Positions 12,053-33,616 of a DNA stretch of 64,000 nt are shown here, in pieces (the stretch's first letter is position 1; each line of letters opens with the position of its first letter). This DNA comes from Desulfobacula sp. (GTDB lineage: Bacteria > Desulfobacterota > Desulfobacteria > Desulfobacterales > Desulfobacteraceae): NCBI GenBank assembly GCA_023701135.1, contig JAMPXP010000005.1, positions 1 through 64,000 on the forward strand, written 5' to 3'. The notes under the pieces were generated by a model, which was not told the DNA's origin, ran no database searches, and saw only the letters and a list, made by a program, of their open reading frames with translations. A program made the position numbers and the translations under genes.

Positions 12053-13288
12053 ATGATCAACCGGAATTTTTTGCTGCTCTTATCAGGTCAGTTGGTTTCC
12101 CAGATCGGGGATAAATTTCATATGATTGCCCTGTCCTTCTATGTATTGAAGACAACGGGATCATCCGCCAGAATGGGGGCGGTGCTGGCCGCTTCTCTGA
12201 TCCCTTCCCTGGTGCTGGGATTTTTTTCCGGTGCCTTTATCGACCGGTATAACCGGAAAACCATCATCGTGGGCACGGACCTGATCCGCGGGGTGATCAT
12301 TGGAATTTTCGCCCTTTTGTTTTATTTTGAAGCCATGAATTTTTATGTCATTTTGCTCATGCAGGTGCTTCTTTCCGTCAATGCCGCATTTTTTGATCCG
12401 GCCGTTCCTGCAGTGATTCCTCGGATTGTGGAGGAAAAGGACCTGGCTGCCGCCAATTCCGGGCACCAGTTTGTCAGCAGTTTTTCCACCATTGCCGGTG
12501 CGTTTTTAGGGGGAATCATGGTTTCGGCCTTTGGGTATTTCTGGGTGTTTGTCTTGAATGCGGCTTCCTTTATTCTTTCCGCCGGGTTTGAATGCTTTAT
12601 CCAAATTCCGCCGATCTCTGGGAAAGAAAAGATAAAAAAGCAGCAGGGACTTTGGGAAGATATGAGGCAGGGATACCGGTATATCCTTTCCCGGCAAGAG
12701 CTTGTCGTTCTTTTATTCATGGTCCTGGTCATTCATTTTTTTGTCGGTTCCATTGAAGTCATCCTGCCGGTGATGGCGGATACTGTTTCATTGGAAGGGG
12801 CCAGGACCCTTGGATTTTTTCAGACCGCCTTGGGGCTTGGCACCCTCGCCATGGCCGTTTTCCTCAGCATCCGGACCATTTCGGGAAGGGAAAAAGCAAG
12901 CCTTTTCAGCAGTGTTTTCATTATCGGGCTGCTTTTTTTGGGGATAGGGATGGTCAACCCCGGGGAAAGGATCAGTTTTTATCTGCTCATGATTTTTTTG
13001 TTCGGATGCTGTATTATCTGTGCCGGAATTTCCTTTCGGACCCTTTTACAGAAGGGGGTGGATAATGCCTTTGCCGGAAGAGTGTTTGCCGTGGCAGGTT
13101 CCATCGGAAATGCCGCCATCCCCGGCGCCATGATCATTTACGGGGTCTTGCTGGAACACTATTCTTTTCAAGGATTGCTGATGGTTTCAGGCCTGGTGCT
13201 GATGCTGCTCAGCATGGGTTCATGTGTTTTGTATAAGGAGAAAAAATTTGGCCGCACAGAAAAAATCCTCTCTAAACCCGGCGCTTAA
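12053..13288 (+). CDS. MFS transporter, MFS_3/EntS-like exporter
   Basis: A 411-residue inner-membrane protein with about 12 hydrophobic segments. The start at 12053 is chosen because AGGAGA is spaced correctly upstream; an in-frame ATG at 12023 lacks a site. The opening NFLLLLSGQLVSQIGDKFHM and the loop SGAFIDRYNRKTIIVGTDL (the MFS signature between TM2 and TM3) match the drug/siderophore-exporter branch (EntS, MefA-like). Substrate unknown. The next small gene overlaps its 3' end by about 40 bases, so the two are probably translated together. Confidence 0.85.
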   Translation: MINRNFLLLLSGQLVSQIGDKFHMIALSFYVLKTTGSSARMGAVLAASLIPSLVLGFFSGAFIDRYNRKTIIVGTDLIRGVIIGIFALLFYFEAMNFYVILLMQVLLSVNAAFFDPAVPAVIPRIVEEKDLAAANSGHQFVSSFSTIAGAFLGGIMVSAFGYFWVFVLNAASFILSAGFECFIQIPPISGKEKIKKQQGLWEDMRQGYRYILSRQELVVLLFMVLVIHFFVGSIEVILPVMADTVSLEGARTLGFFQTALGLGTLAMAVFLSIRTISGREKASLFSSVFIIGLLFLGIGMVNPGERISFYLLMIFLFGCCIICAGISFRTLLQKGVDNAFAGRVFAVAGSIGNAAIPGAMIIYGVLLEHYSFQGLLMVSGLVLMLLSMGSCVLYKEKKFGRTEKILSKPGA

Positions 13289-13523
13289 CGTTGAAAGGGT
13301 GCAGACCGGAGTCAGGATTGAAAAAAGGATATTAAAAGTATTGAAGGGGCTTGCCGAATATCATGACCTGACCCTTGGCGACCTGATTGAGGGAATCGTC
13401 CTCCATGCCTTTGAAGGCAAGGCCCCTTTTGATGAGAAAAACCTGAAAAAAATTGAAGAATTAAAGCAGATCTATGATTTGGATCTGACCAGCCAGGACA
13501 GCCATAAGCTTGTGGAGTCCTGA
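13248..13523 (+). CDS. Small ribbon-helix-helix-like protein
   Basis: About 91 residues. A TTG start at 13248 is preferred because AAGGAG ends seven bases before it, inside the 3' end of the transporter gene. The core TGVRIEKRILKVLKGLAEYH followed by DLTLGDLIEGIVLHAFEG has a strand-helix-helix pattern like Arc/CopG ribbon-helix-helix proteins. It may be a small DNA-binding regulator or an antitoxin without a visible partner. Overlap with the exporter suggests co-expression and possible control of that gene. Function is inferred from pattern only. Confidence 0.6.
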   Translation: MAAQKKSSLNPALNVERVQTGVRIEKRILKVLKGLAEYHDLTLGDLIEGIVLHAFEGKAPFDEKNLKKIEELKQIYDLDLTSQDSHKLVES

Positions 13524-13545: not shown

Positions 13546-14631
13546 TCAGCTTGCCGGAGCCTGGCCGGGTAAATGTCGCATGCCTGAAATTCCATTCCAG
13601 GCCATCAGAAGGGTAAGAATCAGGGCTCCTGCCAATTGGGCGGGATAGGGAATGATTTCAGAAGCCTGGCCTATGGTCGCACTGGCCTGGATGCCGGACA
13701 GAACATATATCCAGTCCAGCAGAAATCCCATGGCCAGAGAACAGATGGCTATCATGGACAGATAAATGATGAGGGCCCGGGTATTGAATATGTTTTTAAC
13801 AATATTCATGGTGGCGGCATTGGTGGCCGGGCCTGCCAGCAGGAAGACCAGGGCGGCTCCGGGATTCAATCCTTTGAGAATGAGAGCCGCGGCAATGGGG
13901 GTGGAGGATGTGGCGCAGACATACATGGGCATCCCTGCCGCCAACATCATCAGCATGGATAGGAATTGATGCTCGTTGGCCCAGATTGTCAGATCTTCCG
14001 GGAAAAAAAAGGTAATGAGGCCGGCAATGAAGATCCCGATGATAAAGGGTTTTGTAATATCCGATAAAAGTTCGCCAAAGGCATAGTGAACACCTGCCTT
14101 TAATTTTTCGGAAAGGGTTTTCGGTTTCGCTTGTGCAACTGCACAGCAATTTGAAGTGCTGCTTCAGCCGCCTTTTAGGCTTAACGGTGGTGTGTTTTCC
14201 GGCAAGTCGTTGATCCCGGCATAATTCTGGACGATTCCGGTGGCAATGGCCGTGATAAACCCTGCAACAGGCCTTATGACCGTCATGATGGGGTCCAGCA
14301 TGGCCCAGGAAACAGCAATGGAATCCACGCCTGATTCAGGCGTGGCAATCATAAAGGAGAGGGCGGCTCCATTATTGGCCCCCTGTTTTTTCAGTCCTGC
14401 GGCCACCGGGACAACACCGCAGGAGCATAAGGGAATGGGAATTCCGAAAAGCGCGGACAGGATGACCGGCCTGATTTTGCCGGTTCCAAGATATTTTTTG
14501 ATCTTATCCGGTTTGAAAAAAACATAGAGGATACCGGCCATAAAAAAGCCGAACAGCATATAGACGGCAACATCAAGATAAATCTGCCAGGTTTCTTTTA
14601 GTATTTCATATAGAATTGTCATGAGTGTCAT
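13546..14631 (-). CDS. SO_0444/YraQ-type metal permease with in-frame TGA, probable selenoprotein
   Basis: Two membrane halves sit in one frame, separated by a single TGA at 14164-14166. The first half (155 codons) has the family hallmark IPIPLCSCGVVPVAAGLKKQG and PESGVDS. The second has MPMYVCATSSTPIAAAL and GPATNAATMNIV. Reading the TGA as residue 156 gives a 361-residue protein, the normal length of this DUF318-type permease. The TGA falls in the Cys-rich linker (GG-U-SSTSNCC), where relatives usually have Cys clusters. A SECIS-like hairpin follows. The gene is 24 bases after an ArsR/SmtB regulator, so it likely exports a soft metal such as Zn, Cd or Cu. A nonsense-mutated pseudogene is the alternative. 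Confidence 0.7.
14129..14147 (-). promoter_or_regulatory. Candidate bacterial SECIS element
   Basis: On the minus strand, 16 bases after the in-frame UGA, GCUGUGCAGUUGCACAAGC folds into a seven-pair stem (GCU/AGC and GUGC/GCAC) with one bulged A and the loop AGUU. The loop G is the second loop base and lies 24 bases from the UGA. Bacterial SECIS elements are known to carry a G in the first two loop bases at about 16-37 bases from the UGA. Translation requires SelB and tRNA-Sec, which are outside the window. Confidence 0.6.
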
Positions 14632-14654: not shown

Positions 14655-14999
14655 TCAGTGTCTGACATGGTGAAGGCTCATATGGATCAGGGAGGCGACA
14701 TGGTCGTCATCAATGGAGTAGTAGATGATTTTACCATCTCTCCTGGTTTTTACGATTTTCAAGGTCCTTAATATCCGGAGCTGGTGGGAAACGGCAGAAT
14801 CCGTCTGACCGCAGATGGCCGCAATATCGCACACGCAATGTTCCTGGTTGAGCAGGGCCAGAACAATTTTAAGCCGTGAAGGATCACTCAAAGCCTTGAA
14901 GATATCCGCCATCTGATGGATATCTTCCGTTGGGGGCAGGCTTCCTACCGTTGCTTTGACCTTGGTTTCGTTAATACATTTTATATCACAGGTATCCAT
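14655..14999 (-). CDS. ArsR/SmtB-family metal-responsive repressor
   Basis: About 114 residues from ATG 14999, preferred to ATG 15014 because AAGAGG precedes it and the first ATG overlaps a candidate operator. The winged helix-turn-helix is DIFKALSDPSRLKIVLALL followed by CDIAAICGQTDSAVSHQLR. The alpha-3 ligand motif CVCD and a C-terminal helix with DDDHVASLIHMSLHHVRH match both the thiolate (CadC-like) and the alpha-5 zinc (SmtB/ZiaR-like) sensing sites. It should repress its own operon until Zn, Cd or a similar metal binds. The permease follows after 24 bases. Confidence 0.88.
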   Translation of the reverse strand: MDTCDIKCINETKVKATVGSLPPTEDIHQMADIFKALSDPSRLKIVLALLNQEHCVCDIAAICGQTDSAVSHQLRILRTLKIVKTRRDGKIIYYSIDDDHVASLIHMSLHHVRH

Positions 15000-15012
15000 T
15001 AAACACCTCTTC

Positions 15013-15032
15013 ATTTGATCAGTTGTTCATAT
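15013..15032 (-). promoter_or_regulatory. SmtB/ArsR-type operator candidate
   Basis: The minus strand carries ATATGAACAACTGATCAAAT. The left half ATATGAACA matches the known SmtB/ZiaR half-site; the right half is degenerate. It lies directly at the start of the regulator gene, where autorepression would act. Confidence 0.45.
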
Positions 15033-15097: not shown

Positions 15098-16201
15098 TCA
15101 GCCCTGAAGGATTTTATCCACTGCTATTTTTGCATCCCAAACAGCCGTGAAAATCAGGTTTGAATGCTTTTTTTCCTTGATGATGCCATCGGAGCCGATT
15201 TCCATATAGGAGGGGCTGATGGCCCCGCCAATGGCGTAGATGCCTTTCCTGCCAGTTTCAAAATGCTCGGAAAGCATGAGCAGCCTCTCCCCTTCCCTGG
15301 CAATTTTGCAGATGACCCCTGTGCAGGTGATCTGCTGGAGATTGAGGGTATCGAAAATGGCCGAAGGCCCGTGGGTACCGATACAGGCAATCACATTTTT
15401 CATGGGGAAGCTCATCCCCTGGTAGGTGTAAAGGTCATTACCGAGGCTCGGAGAAATTGTCTGATGGATATAAAGCCGGTCAATCCCTTCTGCATCCACT
15501 TCTCCAATTTTGGGGACCGCTTTTTGAAGAATTTTAATATGCCCGCCCAAAAGGATTTCCTCGCCCAGATCCCGGGCCGTATCTTTGTTGATTTCAAAGG
15601 TTTCCTTGATATGGGCCCAATACACACTGGTGGTGTCGTCTTTTGCCTGGCGCTTGATTTTGGAAAGAGAGCACACCACATCGGCTGCGGCATTCCCGCC
15701 ACCGATGACCAAGACATTGACGCCGATATAATCCTCGCCGTTTTCAATATTTCTTCGCACGGTTTTGGCTTCTCCATATATCCCCAGATCATTGGGAATG
15801 TTGCTGCCAAAGGCAAGAATGATGTTTTGAGCGAGATATGAGCCCTTATTGGTTTTAACAAGATAATCCGGATAGGCGCCCATGATCTCTTGAAATTCTT
15901 CATTGAAATGGATATTGAGCCGGCTCTTTGAGGCCAGGGCCTGAATCTGTTCAATATACAGTTCAACCGGAACCTTTTCTTCCGGCGGCTTGATTTCGGG
16001 AACCGGGAAAAGGCCTTCATAGCCTTTGGGTATGGTCGGGTAAACTTTTTTGCCTTTTGGATAAGTGTCGATAATGCCTTGCATGATATTCCGTCCCTTT
16101 TCCAGGATCAAATGGGACTTTGACGATTTTTGGGCCAGGAGAGCCGAGGAAAGGCCTCCCGGACCTGATCCGATAATGACCAGATCAAATGTTTCAGCCA
16201 T
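15098..16201 (-). CDS. FAD-dependent NAD(P)-binding oxidoreductase, thioredoxin-reductase-like
   Basis: About 367 residues. ATG 16201 is preferred because AAGGAG lies nine bases upstream; the ATG at 16210 abuts the site. A first Rossmann motif DLVIIGSGPGGLSSALLA is at the N-terminus and a second, VLVIGGGNAAADVVCSL, is near residue 165, the two-dinucleotide-fold arrangement of low-molecular-weight pyridine-nucleotide disulfide reductases and YpdA/flavin monooxygenase-like proteins. No CxxC redox pair is visible between the domains, so it is not a classical thioredoxin reductase. Partner and substrate are unknown; it could reduce a quinone, ferredoxin or persulfide. Confidence 0.75.
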   Translation of the reverse strand: MAETFDLVIIGSGPGGLSSALLAQKSSKSHLILEKGRNIMQGIIDTYPKGKKVYPTIPKGYEGLFPVPEIKPPEEKVPVELYIEQIQALASKSRLNIHFNEEFQEIMGAYPDYLVKTNKGSYLAQNIILAFGSNIPNDLGIYGEAKTVRRNIENGEDYIGVNVLVIGGGNAAADVVCSLSKIKRQAKDDTTSVYWAHIKETFEINKDTARDLGEEILLGGHIKILQKAVPKIGEVDAEGIDRLYIHQTISPSLGNDLYTYQGMSFPMKNVIACIGTHGPSAIFDTLNLQQITCTGVICKIAREGERLLMLSEHFETGRKGIYAIGGAISPSYMEIGSDGIIKEKKHSNLIFTAVWDAKIAVDKILQG

Positions 16202-16285
16202 GGGGCACATCTCCTTGAATTGAGTTCATTAAGTGATTTCAAATCAGATTATCATGATGGATAAAGTATTGTCCAATCCAAAAAA

Positions 16286-30678: not shown

Positions 30679-32304
30679 GTGAGGAAAAACGTATTGAAAA
30701 TGAAACTGTCGGGTTTCAATTTGTTGGGAAAGGGGTGGGCGATTCTTCTGGCGTTCCTGTTGTCAGCTTCAACCCTTTATGCGGAAGATCTGCATATATC
30801 AAACGAATTTTCGTTGACCCATAATCATATTTCAGGCCCCGGCCAGGCAAGTTCTTCTTTAACGGAGGGCCTCCGGTATCTGAATGTTCTGGGGATCACC
30901 GGAGCCGGGCAGATCAAAGGATTTGATTATAATTTTAATTTCGGCGGGAAAGCGACGGATGATAATAGAAATGATGTTAAGAGCCTTTCTCTCACCAATC
31001 TCCAGGGCAGAATAACCGATAAAATCAATACGGTGAACATGGGGGACACCTTTGAATCGTTTTCCCAGTATTCATTAGGGACGTCATTGAAAGGGGCCTC
31101 CTACAGGTTTTATGATGAGGCCGCTAATACCCCCGATATTACGGTAGTCTCCGGCCTGGCTTATCCCAGGTGGGATAATGTCTGGCGTGAGCGTGAGACA
31201 AGGACCGTCGAGCGGCAGGCCTTTGGCAGCCGCATAAAATATAATGTTACCCCTGATTTCTTTGCCGGGGCCAACCTGGTGGTTTCAGATGATGATAAAC
31301 GGATAAGGACAACGGATCCGCTTTACAATAATATGGTGTATTCATTGGATATGGAATACAGGCCCATCCCCGGGCTGACGCTTCGGACGGAATCCGCCTT
31401 TAATGACACCAAACTGTCGGAGCAGGAAGGCGCTGACTATAAAATCAATCACGGATATGCTCATAAAATTGAAGCCATCGGAGATGGCGGCCCCAGCCGG
31501 GCCAGCCTGGAATATGAACGGATTGCGCCTGATTTCCAGACCCTGCTCGGATCGGCCACCCCTGACCGGGAAAAAGCAAAGGCCAAATGGAGATATCGGT
31601 ACAGCAAAACCCTTAGCATCAGCACCGGGTTCCTATGGTTCAGAAACAATCTGGAGCACCAAAGGGCATTTACCACAAACAATTATAAACCCGAGGCCGG
31701 GATAACCGTTAAGAGGCTGTTTGACAGGCAATACTCCACAGCAGATATATCCTATAAATTTGACAGGAAATACGGGGGCACGACGAGCGCCTCCAATCAT
31801 ATCACCAATTTCGGTTACCGGGACAGATTCGGAATTTTTGACAGCGAAACCAATCTCGGCTATACCATATACAATACAAAAACCAGGGTCATTGACAGCA
31901 AAGAATATACCTACAACACCATGCTCAGTTCCCGGCACACCCTTGAAAAATGCATCCTGAAACCCTCTTTATACCTTGGCGGGTGGACGGCCAGCGACGA
32001 ACTGGCAGATACCAGGGATGTGATCTACGAATATTCCCTCGGGCTTGGGGTGGATATCCCCGACCGCAAAATCACCTCTGATATCCGGGTGGGCATGAAC
32101 AAGCTTGAAAAGGAGGCGGCCGGTACGGACGATTCGCTCAAGACTTTTGCCGTCATGAGCCTTTATTACAGGCCTGATTTCCTGGCAAAGCTCAACCAGG
32201 GCCTGCTCTTTTTAAGGGCGAGCATCAATGATTTCAATTATACCACCGAGACCCGGGATTTCAGGGAAACCAGCATCACATCAGGAATAAATATTCAGTT
32301 TTAA
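30679..32304 (+). CDS. Putative outer-membrane beta-barrel protein
   Basis: A 541-residue exported protein with a GTG start behind GAAGGAG. The signal peptide includes GWAILLAFLLSASTLYA with cleavage likely after YA. The mature part is built of alternating short strands rich in Tyr, Gly and Thr (YNFNFGGKATD; RFGIFDSETNLGYTIYNTK) and ends in Phe (TSGINIQF), the typical C-terminal signature for BAM-mediated assembly. Channel or scaffold role unknown. It is the first gene of an operon reading from the sigma-54 promoter, followed after ten bases by the next. Confidence 0.7.
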   Translation: MRKNVLKMKLSGFNLLGKGWAILLAFLLSASTLYAEDLHISNEFSLTHNHISGPGQASSSLTEGLRYLNVLGITGAGQIKGFDYNFNFGGKATDDNRNDVKSLSLTNLQGRITDKINTVNMGDTFESFSQYSLGTSLKGASYRFYDEAANTPDITVVSGLAYPRWDNVWRERETRTVERQAFGSRIKYNVTPDFFAGANLVVSDDDKRIRTTDPLYNNMVYSLDMEYRPIPGLTLRTESAFNDTKLSEQEGADYKINHGYAHKIEAIGDGGPSRASLEYERIAPDFQTLLGSATPDREKAKAKWRYRYSKTLSISTGFLWFRNNLEHQRAFTTNNYKPEAGITVKRLFDRQYSTADISYKFDRKYGGTTSASNHITNFGYRDRFGIFDSETNLGYTIYNTKTRVIDSKEYTYNTMLSSRHTLEKCILKPSLYLGGWTASDELADTRDVIYEYSLGLGVDIPDRKITSDIRVGMNKLEKEAAGTDDSLKTFAVMSLYYRPDFLAKLNQGLLFLRASINDFNYTTETRDFRETSITSGINIQF

Positions 32305-32314
32305 GGAGAAAAAC

Positions 32315-33616
32315 ATGAAAAACATAAGACTCAATCTGGCCGTATCCGTTTTCATATTGATGCTGACTGCGGTTCATGCCGACGCCAAATGGTGGATATT
32401 CGGCCAGTCCAACGATGAGATCAATATCAATTACCTCTACCTCAATAAGATCGCCTATGATGAAAGCGGCCCTCAGATCACCGTTTACAAGGAGACTCTG
32501 CAGGACGGACTGGTTTATATCACTGGCAAAGCCTCAACCCGGAAAGGGAAATTAGGCGGGGTCAGGGTTACGACCAACAACAAAGAAACCTGGGAAGAGG
32601 CTAAAATCTCCGAGAACGGGGCCTTTGAATACAGTTTCAAGCCCGAGTTGAACAAAGACTATATTCTTTTTATAGAGATTATGGATACGGCCGGCAAGAC
32701 CAACGACATCGAATTGACGCGAAAGGAAGTGAAACTGTCGGAGCAGAATATCATGGCCTTGATCAGGGAAACCCTGGATAAGATGATCGAGGCATACAAA
32801 AACGAAGATCCTGCCCGGTTCATGTCCCATGTCAGTGAGGACTTTACCGGGGATGAGGCCAACCTTGACCGGGCCATCCGGAGGGATTTCAATGCCTTTG
32901 ACAATATTGATTTACGGTATACTCTGAACAATATCACATCGGGAGCCAAGGGCATGGTCTATGTGTCCATCAATTTTAACCGGTCGGTAATTTCGACAAA
33001 GGACGGGAAGCCATATACGGACAAGGGGATGACGGAATTCATATTTCAACTGGGTCCTGCAAGGGTCTATAATATGAAGAACCCTCTTATTTTCGGGTTG
33101 AGCGATGCCGAGAATGTGGCTGTCGGAACCGTTAAATCCAGTTCCGGAGAACTGAATATCAGCTTAAGCGAAACAAATGCCGTCGGTCTTACCGCAGACG
33201 GTACGACAGGAGACAGCTCTGTCTTGAGCGGGACAGTGACCTTGACCACAGTAAACCCGTTTACCAATTTTCAAGGGTTTATCTTTGCCGACGAAGAAAT
33301 AACCAATGAAACCGACGGGGGAAATATTATGGGGGATTTTGGCTTAGCGATAGAAACCCTGGCCATGGCGGTTATGAATGTGCGGGCAGGGGTACAGGTG
33401 AAAAAAAGAGCCGGTACCCCCCTTTCCCAGATCACAAGCGCGGATGAATCCGGCTACGGAACCTGGGCGGATTCGGGTCAGGCCGGGGACAGCTATGTGT
33501 TCAAACTTTCCAACAACACCTATGGGGCCATTGAAATTGTCAGTTTAAACGGGGCCGGTCCGCGTTATGCCAGCATCAGATATAAATACCAGCCCAATGG
33601 GACAAGGAATTTTTAA
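32315..33616 (+). CDS. Exported protein with an NTF2/SnoaL-like domain
   Basis: A 433-residue protein with signal peptide NLAVSVFILMLTAVHADA. Residues about 45-130 look like a beta-sandwich (ITGKASTRKGKLGGVRVTTN). The segment LIRETLDKMIEAYKNEDPA through a DLDRAIRRDF-like pattern to FIFQL is NTF2/SnoaL-like and resembles the C-terminal domain of the two giant proteins downstream. The C-terminal third is beta-rich (GDSSVLSGTVTLTTVNPF). Good ribosome site AAGGAG. Likely periplasmic or surface-exposed; function unknown. Confidence 0.65.
   Translation: MKNIRLNLAVSVFILMLTAVHADAKWWIFGQSNDEININYLYLNKIAYDESGPQITVYKETLQDGLVYITGKASTRKGKLGGVRVTTNNKETWEEAKISENGAFEYSFKPELNKDYILFIEIMDTAGKTNDIELTRKEVKLSEQNIMALIRETLDKMIEAYKNEDPARFMSHVSEDFTGDEANLDRAIRRDFNAFDNIDLRYTLNNITSGAKGMVYVSINFNRSVISTKDGKPYTDKGMTEFIFQLGPARVYNMKNPLIFGLSDAENVAVGTVKSSSGELNISLSETNAVGLTADGTTGDSSVLSGTVTLTTVNPFTNFQGFIFADEEITNETDGGNIMGDFGLAIETLAMAVMNVRAGVQVKKRAGTPLSQITSADESGYGTWADSGQAGDSYVFKLSNNTYGAIEIVSLNGAGPRYASIRYKYQPNGTRNF

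Follow-up and report, generated by a model that had tools for sequence, protein, structure and literature searches.

A Probable Selenocysteine in the Linker of an SO_0444-Family Permease from Desulfobacula

Introduction

Does a permease gene interrupted by one in-frame TGA encode a short protein, a broken one, or a full-length selenoprotein, and if the last, what would selenium do in a membrane transporter? The question is raised by a gene from Desulfobacula sp., here called the window gene, which lies in a stretch of 64,000 nucleotides referred to as the window. An initial annotation of the gene proposed that selenocysteine (Sec) replaces one Cys in a metal-binding linker of an exporter. The SO_0444 protein of Shewanella, which owes its annotation to stress phenotypes, is needed under Zn and Cu stress according to the available part of PMC3219624, and in Nitratiruptor a relative is induced by Cd and Cu (PMC10092412, available part).

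Results

A single gene of the SO_0444 family around one TGA

The initial annotation placed the gene correctly, at 13546..14631, and gave no strand; it is the minus strand (Table 1). Under the standard code the permease falls into two ORFs of the same frame, 14631-14164 (155 aa) and 13956-13546, the second counted only from an inner ATG. With the internal TGA (codon 156, 14166-14164) translated as Sec, the product has 361 residues. That the two halves share one frame around a single TGA, with no frameshift, was borne out by two family models whose matches cross it. Pfam model ArsP_1 (PF03773), the DUF318 of the initial annotation, matches residues 10-305 with 164 bits (cut-off 32.3), and NCBIfam model NF033936 (SO_0444 family Cu/Zn efflux transporter) matches nearly the whole length and scores 379 bits, above its cut-off of 300, in agreement with the DUF318/SO_0444 assignment first made. 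Five Sec-bearing relatives score 379-431 bits against NF033936. The window permease also has both of the features that we use as family marks, the motif PLCSCG and a Cys in the second half, which come from our own alignment rather than from a published definition. Membership in SaoE (NF040736), a related permease of the SAO organometal system, was rejected: the match covers most of the length at 179.7 bits, but the cut-off is 325, and the neighboring arsR and FAD genes, scanned against the Sao models, match none of them. A sequence search of the PDB with the permease returned no relative (best E 0.9).

Table 1. Coordinates of features at the permease locus, numbered from the first letter of the window
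Feature	Position	Strand	Basis or remark
SO_0444-family permease gene	13546..14631	-	NF033936 and PF03773 matches
Start codon ATG of permease gene	14631-14629	-	
PLCSCG motif, site A, Cys69/Cys71	14416..14433	-	at predicted helix break; Cys in window gene, Sec in many relatives
Linker between repeat halves, residues 139-172	14116..14217	-	predicted disordered around Sec
Putative Sec UGA codon 156, site B, linker	14164..14166	-	residues GGU-SSTSNCC; TGA in 18/21, Cys in 3/21 same-genus genes
bSECIS-like hairpin UUGCUGUGC-AGUU-GCACA(A)GCGA	14127..14149	-	fold and covariation
Hairpin loop AGUU	14140-14137	-	
Cys239 codon, repeat-symmetry partner of Cys69, second helix break	13915..13917	-	conservation and half-to-half alignment
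Stop codon TGA of permease gene	13548-13546	-	
ArsR/SmtB-type metal sensor, 114 aa from inner ATG, directly upstream	14655..14999	-	CxxxC and CVC, DxHx10Hx2H
FAD/NAD(P) oxidoreductase upstream of arsR	15098..16210	-	

Conservation at codon 156

Searches of the source genome and 57 relatives found permease matches at E 1e-40 or better in 37 of the 58 genomes, including 21 of the 26 from the same genus (its own included). At the linker position the 21 same-genus genes have TGA in 18 cases and Cys in three (L025, L031, L033), so that every one of them carries either Cys or TGA. The concern that the TGA might be peculiar to one isolate, with decay elsewhere in the gene, is removed by this distribution and by substitution rates: in comparisons with the window gene, dN/dS is 0.07-0.25 downstream of the UGA (computable in 17 of 20 comparisons) and 0.06-0.11 upstream of it (18 of 20), the value after the UGA exceeding the value before it in nearly all comparisons. 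By this measure purifying selection acts on the stretch past the TGA.

A search of 291 genomes of the order found a match at E 1e-60 in 127. The best 30 places contributed 22 new loci, among them two further linker-Sec genes (L260 and L261), and many of the other matches, beyond those 30 places, carry the flag "1 TGA". The 223 loci collected reduce to 210 that are nonredundant, of which 206 were long enough to align; UGAs past residue 300 were counted as stops. Internal UGAs occupy only four columns of this alignment: the Cys69 column (89), the codon-156 column (22), and two further columns, both in the linker, with four and one. The other rows of the codon-156 column show Cys in 144, other residues in 17 and gaps in 23, although outside the clade of the window gene (26 rows of the tree described below) the column is uncertain because the linker varies much there in length and sequence. 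A different linker motif with Sec, PGCGUP, is found in L062, L064, L068 and L075, which belong to another lineage of these permeases.

Relatives had been said to carry Cys clusters in the linker, and of the 193 family members that reach 300 residues, 155 do have two or more Cys within residues 129-190. In the Cys homologues the cluster reads CxCx3CC or CxCx4C, its first Cys being the residue that corresponds to Sec in the window gene. The Cys two residues past Sec is present in 19 of the 21 same-genus genes and missing in the window gene and its nearest relative, L020, which leaves these two a linker cluster with fewer ligands. The expectation that close homologues would show no residue but Cys in place of Sec stands within the genus and fails beyond it: L222, which is 61% identical and belongs to the clade though not to the genus, lacks both Cys and Sec in the linker and has its Sec at the intramembrane site. 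The linker cluster is therefore not essential to the family. The linker of L264 equals that of L222, and the two loci may be one genome.

The hairpin behind UGA156

The bulged-base hairpin with an AGUU loop noticed at the outset, its loop G 24 bases from the UGA, is present at 14149-14127, with one unpaired A on the 3' side. Taken alone it is unexceptional, since shuffled sequences fold equally well in 7 of 200 trials with the 54-nt stretch and in 49 of 200 with the 41-nt core, and we discarded single-sequence hairpin statistics as too weak a proof of Sec. The case that the hairpin exceeds chance is a comparative one. In 21 aligned clade Sec genes the loop begins with AG (AGUU, AGAC or AGGU) at +24, +21 or +18, and the residues encoded by the hairpins differ (CAVA, GVVT, DTVV, DAGA). 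An unguided search ranked an AGNN loop best in 20 of these 21 genes; L021 prefers another loop. Of the two genes found later, both judged by eye, L261 has the loop AGUU and L260 the loop GGU. The stems vary in a compensatory manner (GUGC/GCAC, GUGU/ACAC, GAUAC/GUAUC, GGAUGC/GCAUCC). In 18 distinct rows and five pairs, 93.3% of cells are paired and four of the five pairs show changes on both sides. The covariation score is 0.414, against 0.220 for shuffled alignments, which ignore relatedness and reached the observed value in 0 of 500 trials, and against at most 0.174 for slid pairings, which keep relatedness; the rows were registered by a script that seeks AG at the three offsets. The four clade homologues with Cys in the linker lack the hairpin (L025, L036) or have a different loop (L031, L033).

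Raw stability discriminates poorly at this site. The median hairpin energy is -5.25 kcal/mol in 22 Sec genes and -3.7 kcal/mol in 144 Cys genes (p 0.014, uncorrected for relatedness), and synonymous shuffles are beaten at the 5% level by one of the 22 Sec genes and 13 of the 144 Cys genes, so that stability as such was set aside as weak proof of Sec. Six linker-Sec genes outside the clade (L062, L064, L068, L075, L078, L081) have hairpins of 5-8 pairs with a G in the loop and a loop start at +19 to +21; those of the four PGCGUP genes follow the motif at -6 to -14 kcal/mol.

All four genes of the Sec machinery whose presence was in question occur in the genome: selA (612.9 bits), selB (352.9 bits), the tRNA-Sec gene selC (76.8 bits) and selD (369.8 bits). 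Homologues, covariation of the SECIS-like element, selection past the TGA and this machinery agree in placing Sec at codon 156 of a Cys-bearing linker, as first proposed, and the decoding of UGA156 as Sec is strongly supported by the comparative data. The SelD gene (G000:C39:8198-9124; L243) has an in-frame UGA near its own N-terminus (VTGAGUASKLG), and a GGG-loop hairpin comes after it.

A second Sec site at Cys69

Scanning genome contigs for the DNA pattern of PLCSCG with TGA in place of the first Cys codon returned 90 stretches, and all 90 match the SO_0444 family with U at the Cys69 position. The ORF of L195 is in two pieces, and L163, L190, L215, L228 and others cut by a sequence end hold part of the gene. 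Their titles name Desulfobacterota-type organisms or merely "Deltaproteobacteria" or "Proteobacteria". Among the 206 aligned genes the Cys69 column contains Cys in 115, U in 89, gaps in two and nothing else, so that all 204 ungapped rows have C or U; the ratio of the two is not a natural frequency, because the 90 loci were sought by that very UGA. Hairpins of -9 kcal/mol or stronger follow this site, site A, in 66 of the 89 Sec genes vs. 25 of the 115 Cys genes (p 2.7e-14, uncorrected for relatedness), and synonymous shuffles are beaten at the 5% level by 36 of 89 vs. 13 of 115. The commonest loops are GGC at +18 (42 genes) and CGUGUC at +24 (22 genes), followed by GGUC, AGUU, AGGU and UGUA.

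Linker and site-A Sec occur together in five distinct genes, namely the clade members L035, L039, L040 and L041 and the distant L081, which have PLUSCG besides the linker Sec. These five double-Sec genes recur among the 90 stretches, as L167 (Desulfobacula sp.), L229, L177, L214 (Desulfospira joergensenii DSM 10085) and L232. The gene is also present, in 15 copies, in 14 of 18 genomes of the Desulfomonile-type family, with U at site A in ten, Cys in five, and linker Sec in none. One of that family's genomes (G456, 6.5 Mb in two contigs; locus L247), which we take to be that of the Desulfomonile tiedjei type strain, has PLUSCG and lacks the linker Sec; D. tiedjei is presumably also the source of the protein WP_014809615.1, considered below.

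In addition to a FastTree phylogeny of 198 rows, we computed a more careful one from 48 selected rows. The latter supports the 26-row clade at 100/100 and unites the clade members with Sec at Cys69 (L035, L039, L040, L041, L222) in one subclade at 99/99. The minimum number of state changes is six for linker Sec and seven for site-A Sec on the 48-row tree, and seven and 18, respectively, on the 198-row tree. On these sequence trees, whose root was not inferred, Sec seems to have been lost repeatedly from the linker, giving the Cys of L025, L031/L033 and L036.

Predicted anatomy of the protein

An AlphaFold2 model, computed from the window protein together with 36 locus sequences, is all helix (mean pLDDT 81.7, pTM 0.79). 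Residues 139-172 are without helix, and pLDDT falls below 50 at residues 150-166, around Sec156. The two halves of the protein align with each other at a score of 117, compared with 32 (sd 5) for shuffled sequences, none of 500 of which reached it, and in 188 of 189 sequences this alignment sets Cys69 opposite Cys239. The modeled helices are broken at residues 64-69 and 237-239. Cys239 is conserved in all 203 ungapped rows, and Cys71 in 203 of 204. Helix breaks are a usual substrate-binding place in transporters. Cys69 and Cys239, together with Cys71, form the likely transport site, a role suggested by sequence and predicted fold; as the first two sit at symmetric breaks, a site-A Sec would occupy one of the two positions.

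Gene neighborhood

A same-strand ArsR gene lies directly upstream of the permease in 25 of the 26 clade loci; the exception, L035, has only 113 nt of upstream DNA. Each of the 24 readable ArsR proteins from these loci has a CxxxC motif near the N-terminus, CVC and DxHx10Hx2H, which we take to be the alpha3N and alpha5 metal sites known from the CadC/SmtB-type sensors that respond to Cd, Pb and Zn. In loci beyond the clade, a same-strand ArsR gene occurs within 300 nt in 52 of the 78 Sec genes that have at least 700 nt of upstream sequence and in 19 of the 27 genes without Sec, so this neighbor is typical of the family rather than of its Sec form. The FAD/NAD(P) oxidoreductase gene is present upstream in five of the 26 clade loci (own locus included; some have little upstream DNA). 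The listed start of the arsR ORF (14655-15014) is probably too early; the start is probably at 14999, because many relatives seem to have a stop ahead of the inner ATG.

Discussion

The window gene very probably encodes a full-length exporter of the SO_0444 family, most likely for soft metals and under ArsR/SmtB regulation, in which UGA156 would be read as Sec by way of the hairpin and metal would be handled from linker to membrane. In the mechanism we propose, decoding would be assisted by the hairpin with its loop 24 nt downstream. Soft metals, Zn/Cd/Pb-like or others, would probably induce the sensor and permease pair, given that the upstream sensor gene has the same orientation and its product two metal-site motifs. 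The permease would work as a two-fold repeat whose likely transport site consists of Cys69 and Cys239 at the broken helices plus Cys71. The flexible Cys/Sec cluster of the linker would capture metal and hand it to the membrane site, and Sec would bind soft metals more tightly, or exchange them faster, than Cys would. For this last part, capture and transfer by the linker with the advantage due to Sec, we put the chances at about even. Service of Sec as a metal ligand, and export of metal in Desulfobacula sp., are our inference from these data.

The strongest competing explanation accepts Sec156 and gives it another task, as a redox switch or sensor, or as a nucleophile toward organometals, the linker then gating transport by redox state rather than holding metal as a plain ligand. 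The related SaoE family is named for an organometal system (PMC13188914, available part). The Sec of the window gene has Cys residues nearby and falls in the disordered linker, an arrangement shared by many Sec-Cys redox pairs, and an FAD oxidoreductase gene stands upstream in a few clade loci. That gene is, however, not consistently adjacent; the regulator that is adjacent carries metal-site motifs; and the presence of at least two linker-region Cys in most family members fits metal ligands throughout the family. We regard a redox or nucleophilic role as rather unlikely.

Two other readings deny Sec altogether. Read-through by a suppressor tRNA, by insertion of Trp, or as a regulated pair of short and long products is very improbable, since the alternative residue within the genus is Cys and not Trp, a covarying hairpin follows the UGA, selA, selB, selC and selD are present, and the other internal UGAs of the family are at Cys69 or in the linker. 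A nonsense-broken gene or an ordinary short protein, for which the standard meaning of TGA and the unexceptional single-sequence hairpin might speak, is less probable still and is all but excluded by retention of the TGA in most same-genus genes with Cys its only substitute there, by dN/dS well below 1 past it, and by the covariation.

The initial annotation knew of no described selenoprotein permease of this family, which calls for a correction. A 2026 review (PMC13188914), in its available part, includes the SO_0444 family among selenoproteins, with a single Sec in the motif UxC, represented by WP_014809615.1 and marked "GenBank annotated". The listed case and the window gene thus belong to one family with Sec, and differ in that the listed Sec is probably intramembrane, in USC, while that of the window gene is in the linker. 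We assign the listed Sec to site A, as probable, because of the Desulfomonile-type genes above (U at site A in 10 of 15, none with linker Sec); a linker UGC would also read as UxC, so the Sec of WP_014809615.1 could be at either site. The same review states, as far as its available part goes, a link between most such transporters and resistance to metals or metalloids, and it lists further transport proteins predicted to contain Sec, MerT-like, E1-E2 ATPase, YeeE/YedE, SaoB, SaoX and SaoP. These resemble the window gene in having Sec in a transporter or metal-handling protein and belong to different families, as judged by the review's names and models only. The searchable literature yielded no description of the linker Sec or of the two-Sec form, within a coverage incomplete enough that an earlier description is possible: neither form appears in the available parts of PMC9312934 and PMC8318568, and the transport-protein words searched for are absent from the main text of PMC12013277. 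The family is thus known as a selenoprotein, and the linker site and double form appear to be undescribed in that literature. From the SO_0444 transporters as characterized, with which it shares the PLCSCG core and the nearly full-length NF033936 match, the window gene differs by its linker Sec; its substrate would be predicted by analogy with distant relatives.

Among relatives, Sec is found at Cys69 alone, in the linker alone, or at both sites. A broader hypothesis, which we hold tentatively and at somewhat less than even odds, is a selenium-based metal export spread across the Desulfobacterota: the SO_0444 permease would have recruited Sec repeatedly at Cys69 and in the linker, both sites being used in at least five genes, each with its own hairpin, and soft metals would pass along a selenolate relay that starts in the linker and ends at the transport site. 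The window gene represents the linker-only form. Most prokaryotic selenoproteins are thought to serve redox reactions (PMC9312934, available part). An exporter with Sec at predicted metal-ligand positions, in many species and with several exchanges between Sec and Cys, suggests that selenium helps in the handling of toxic metals, and the natural Sec/Cys pairs offer a way to ask what selenium contributes to metal transport. Where UGA is taken only as a stop, the Sec genes of this family look truncated, and metal resistance in sulfate reducers may consequently be under-read in genomes.

Additional observations

An Rfam scan of the 64-kb window at the gathering threshold gave no match. A codon-usage scan of the window for further read-through genes ranked the permease only ninth and is for that reason uninformative about other selenoproteins there. 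The same genome encodes two distant relatives of the permease (27-31% identity), close together on one contig at G000:C36:25332-26162 and 31629-32639, both free of internal stops. On the plus strand, convergent to the permease gene, is an ORF of 99 aa (13224-13523) that has no Pfam match; nine other clade loci have a counterpart next to the permease, at 72-83% identity.
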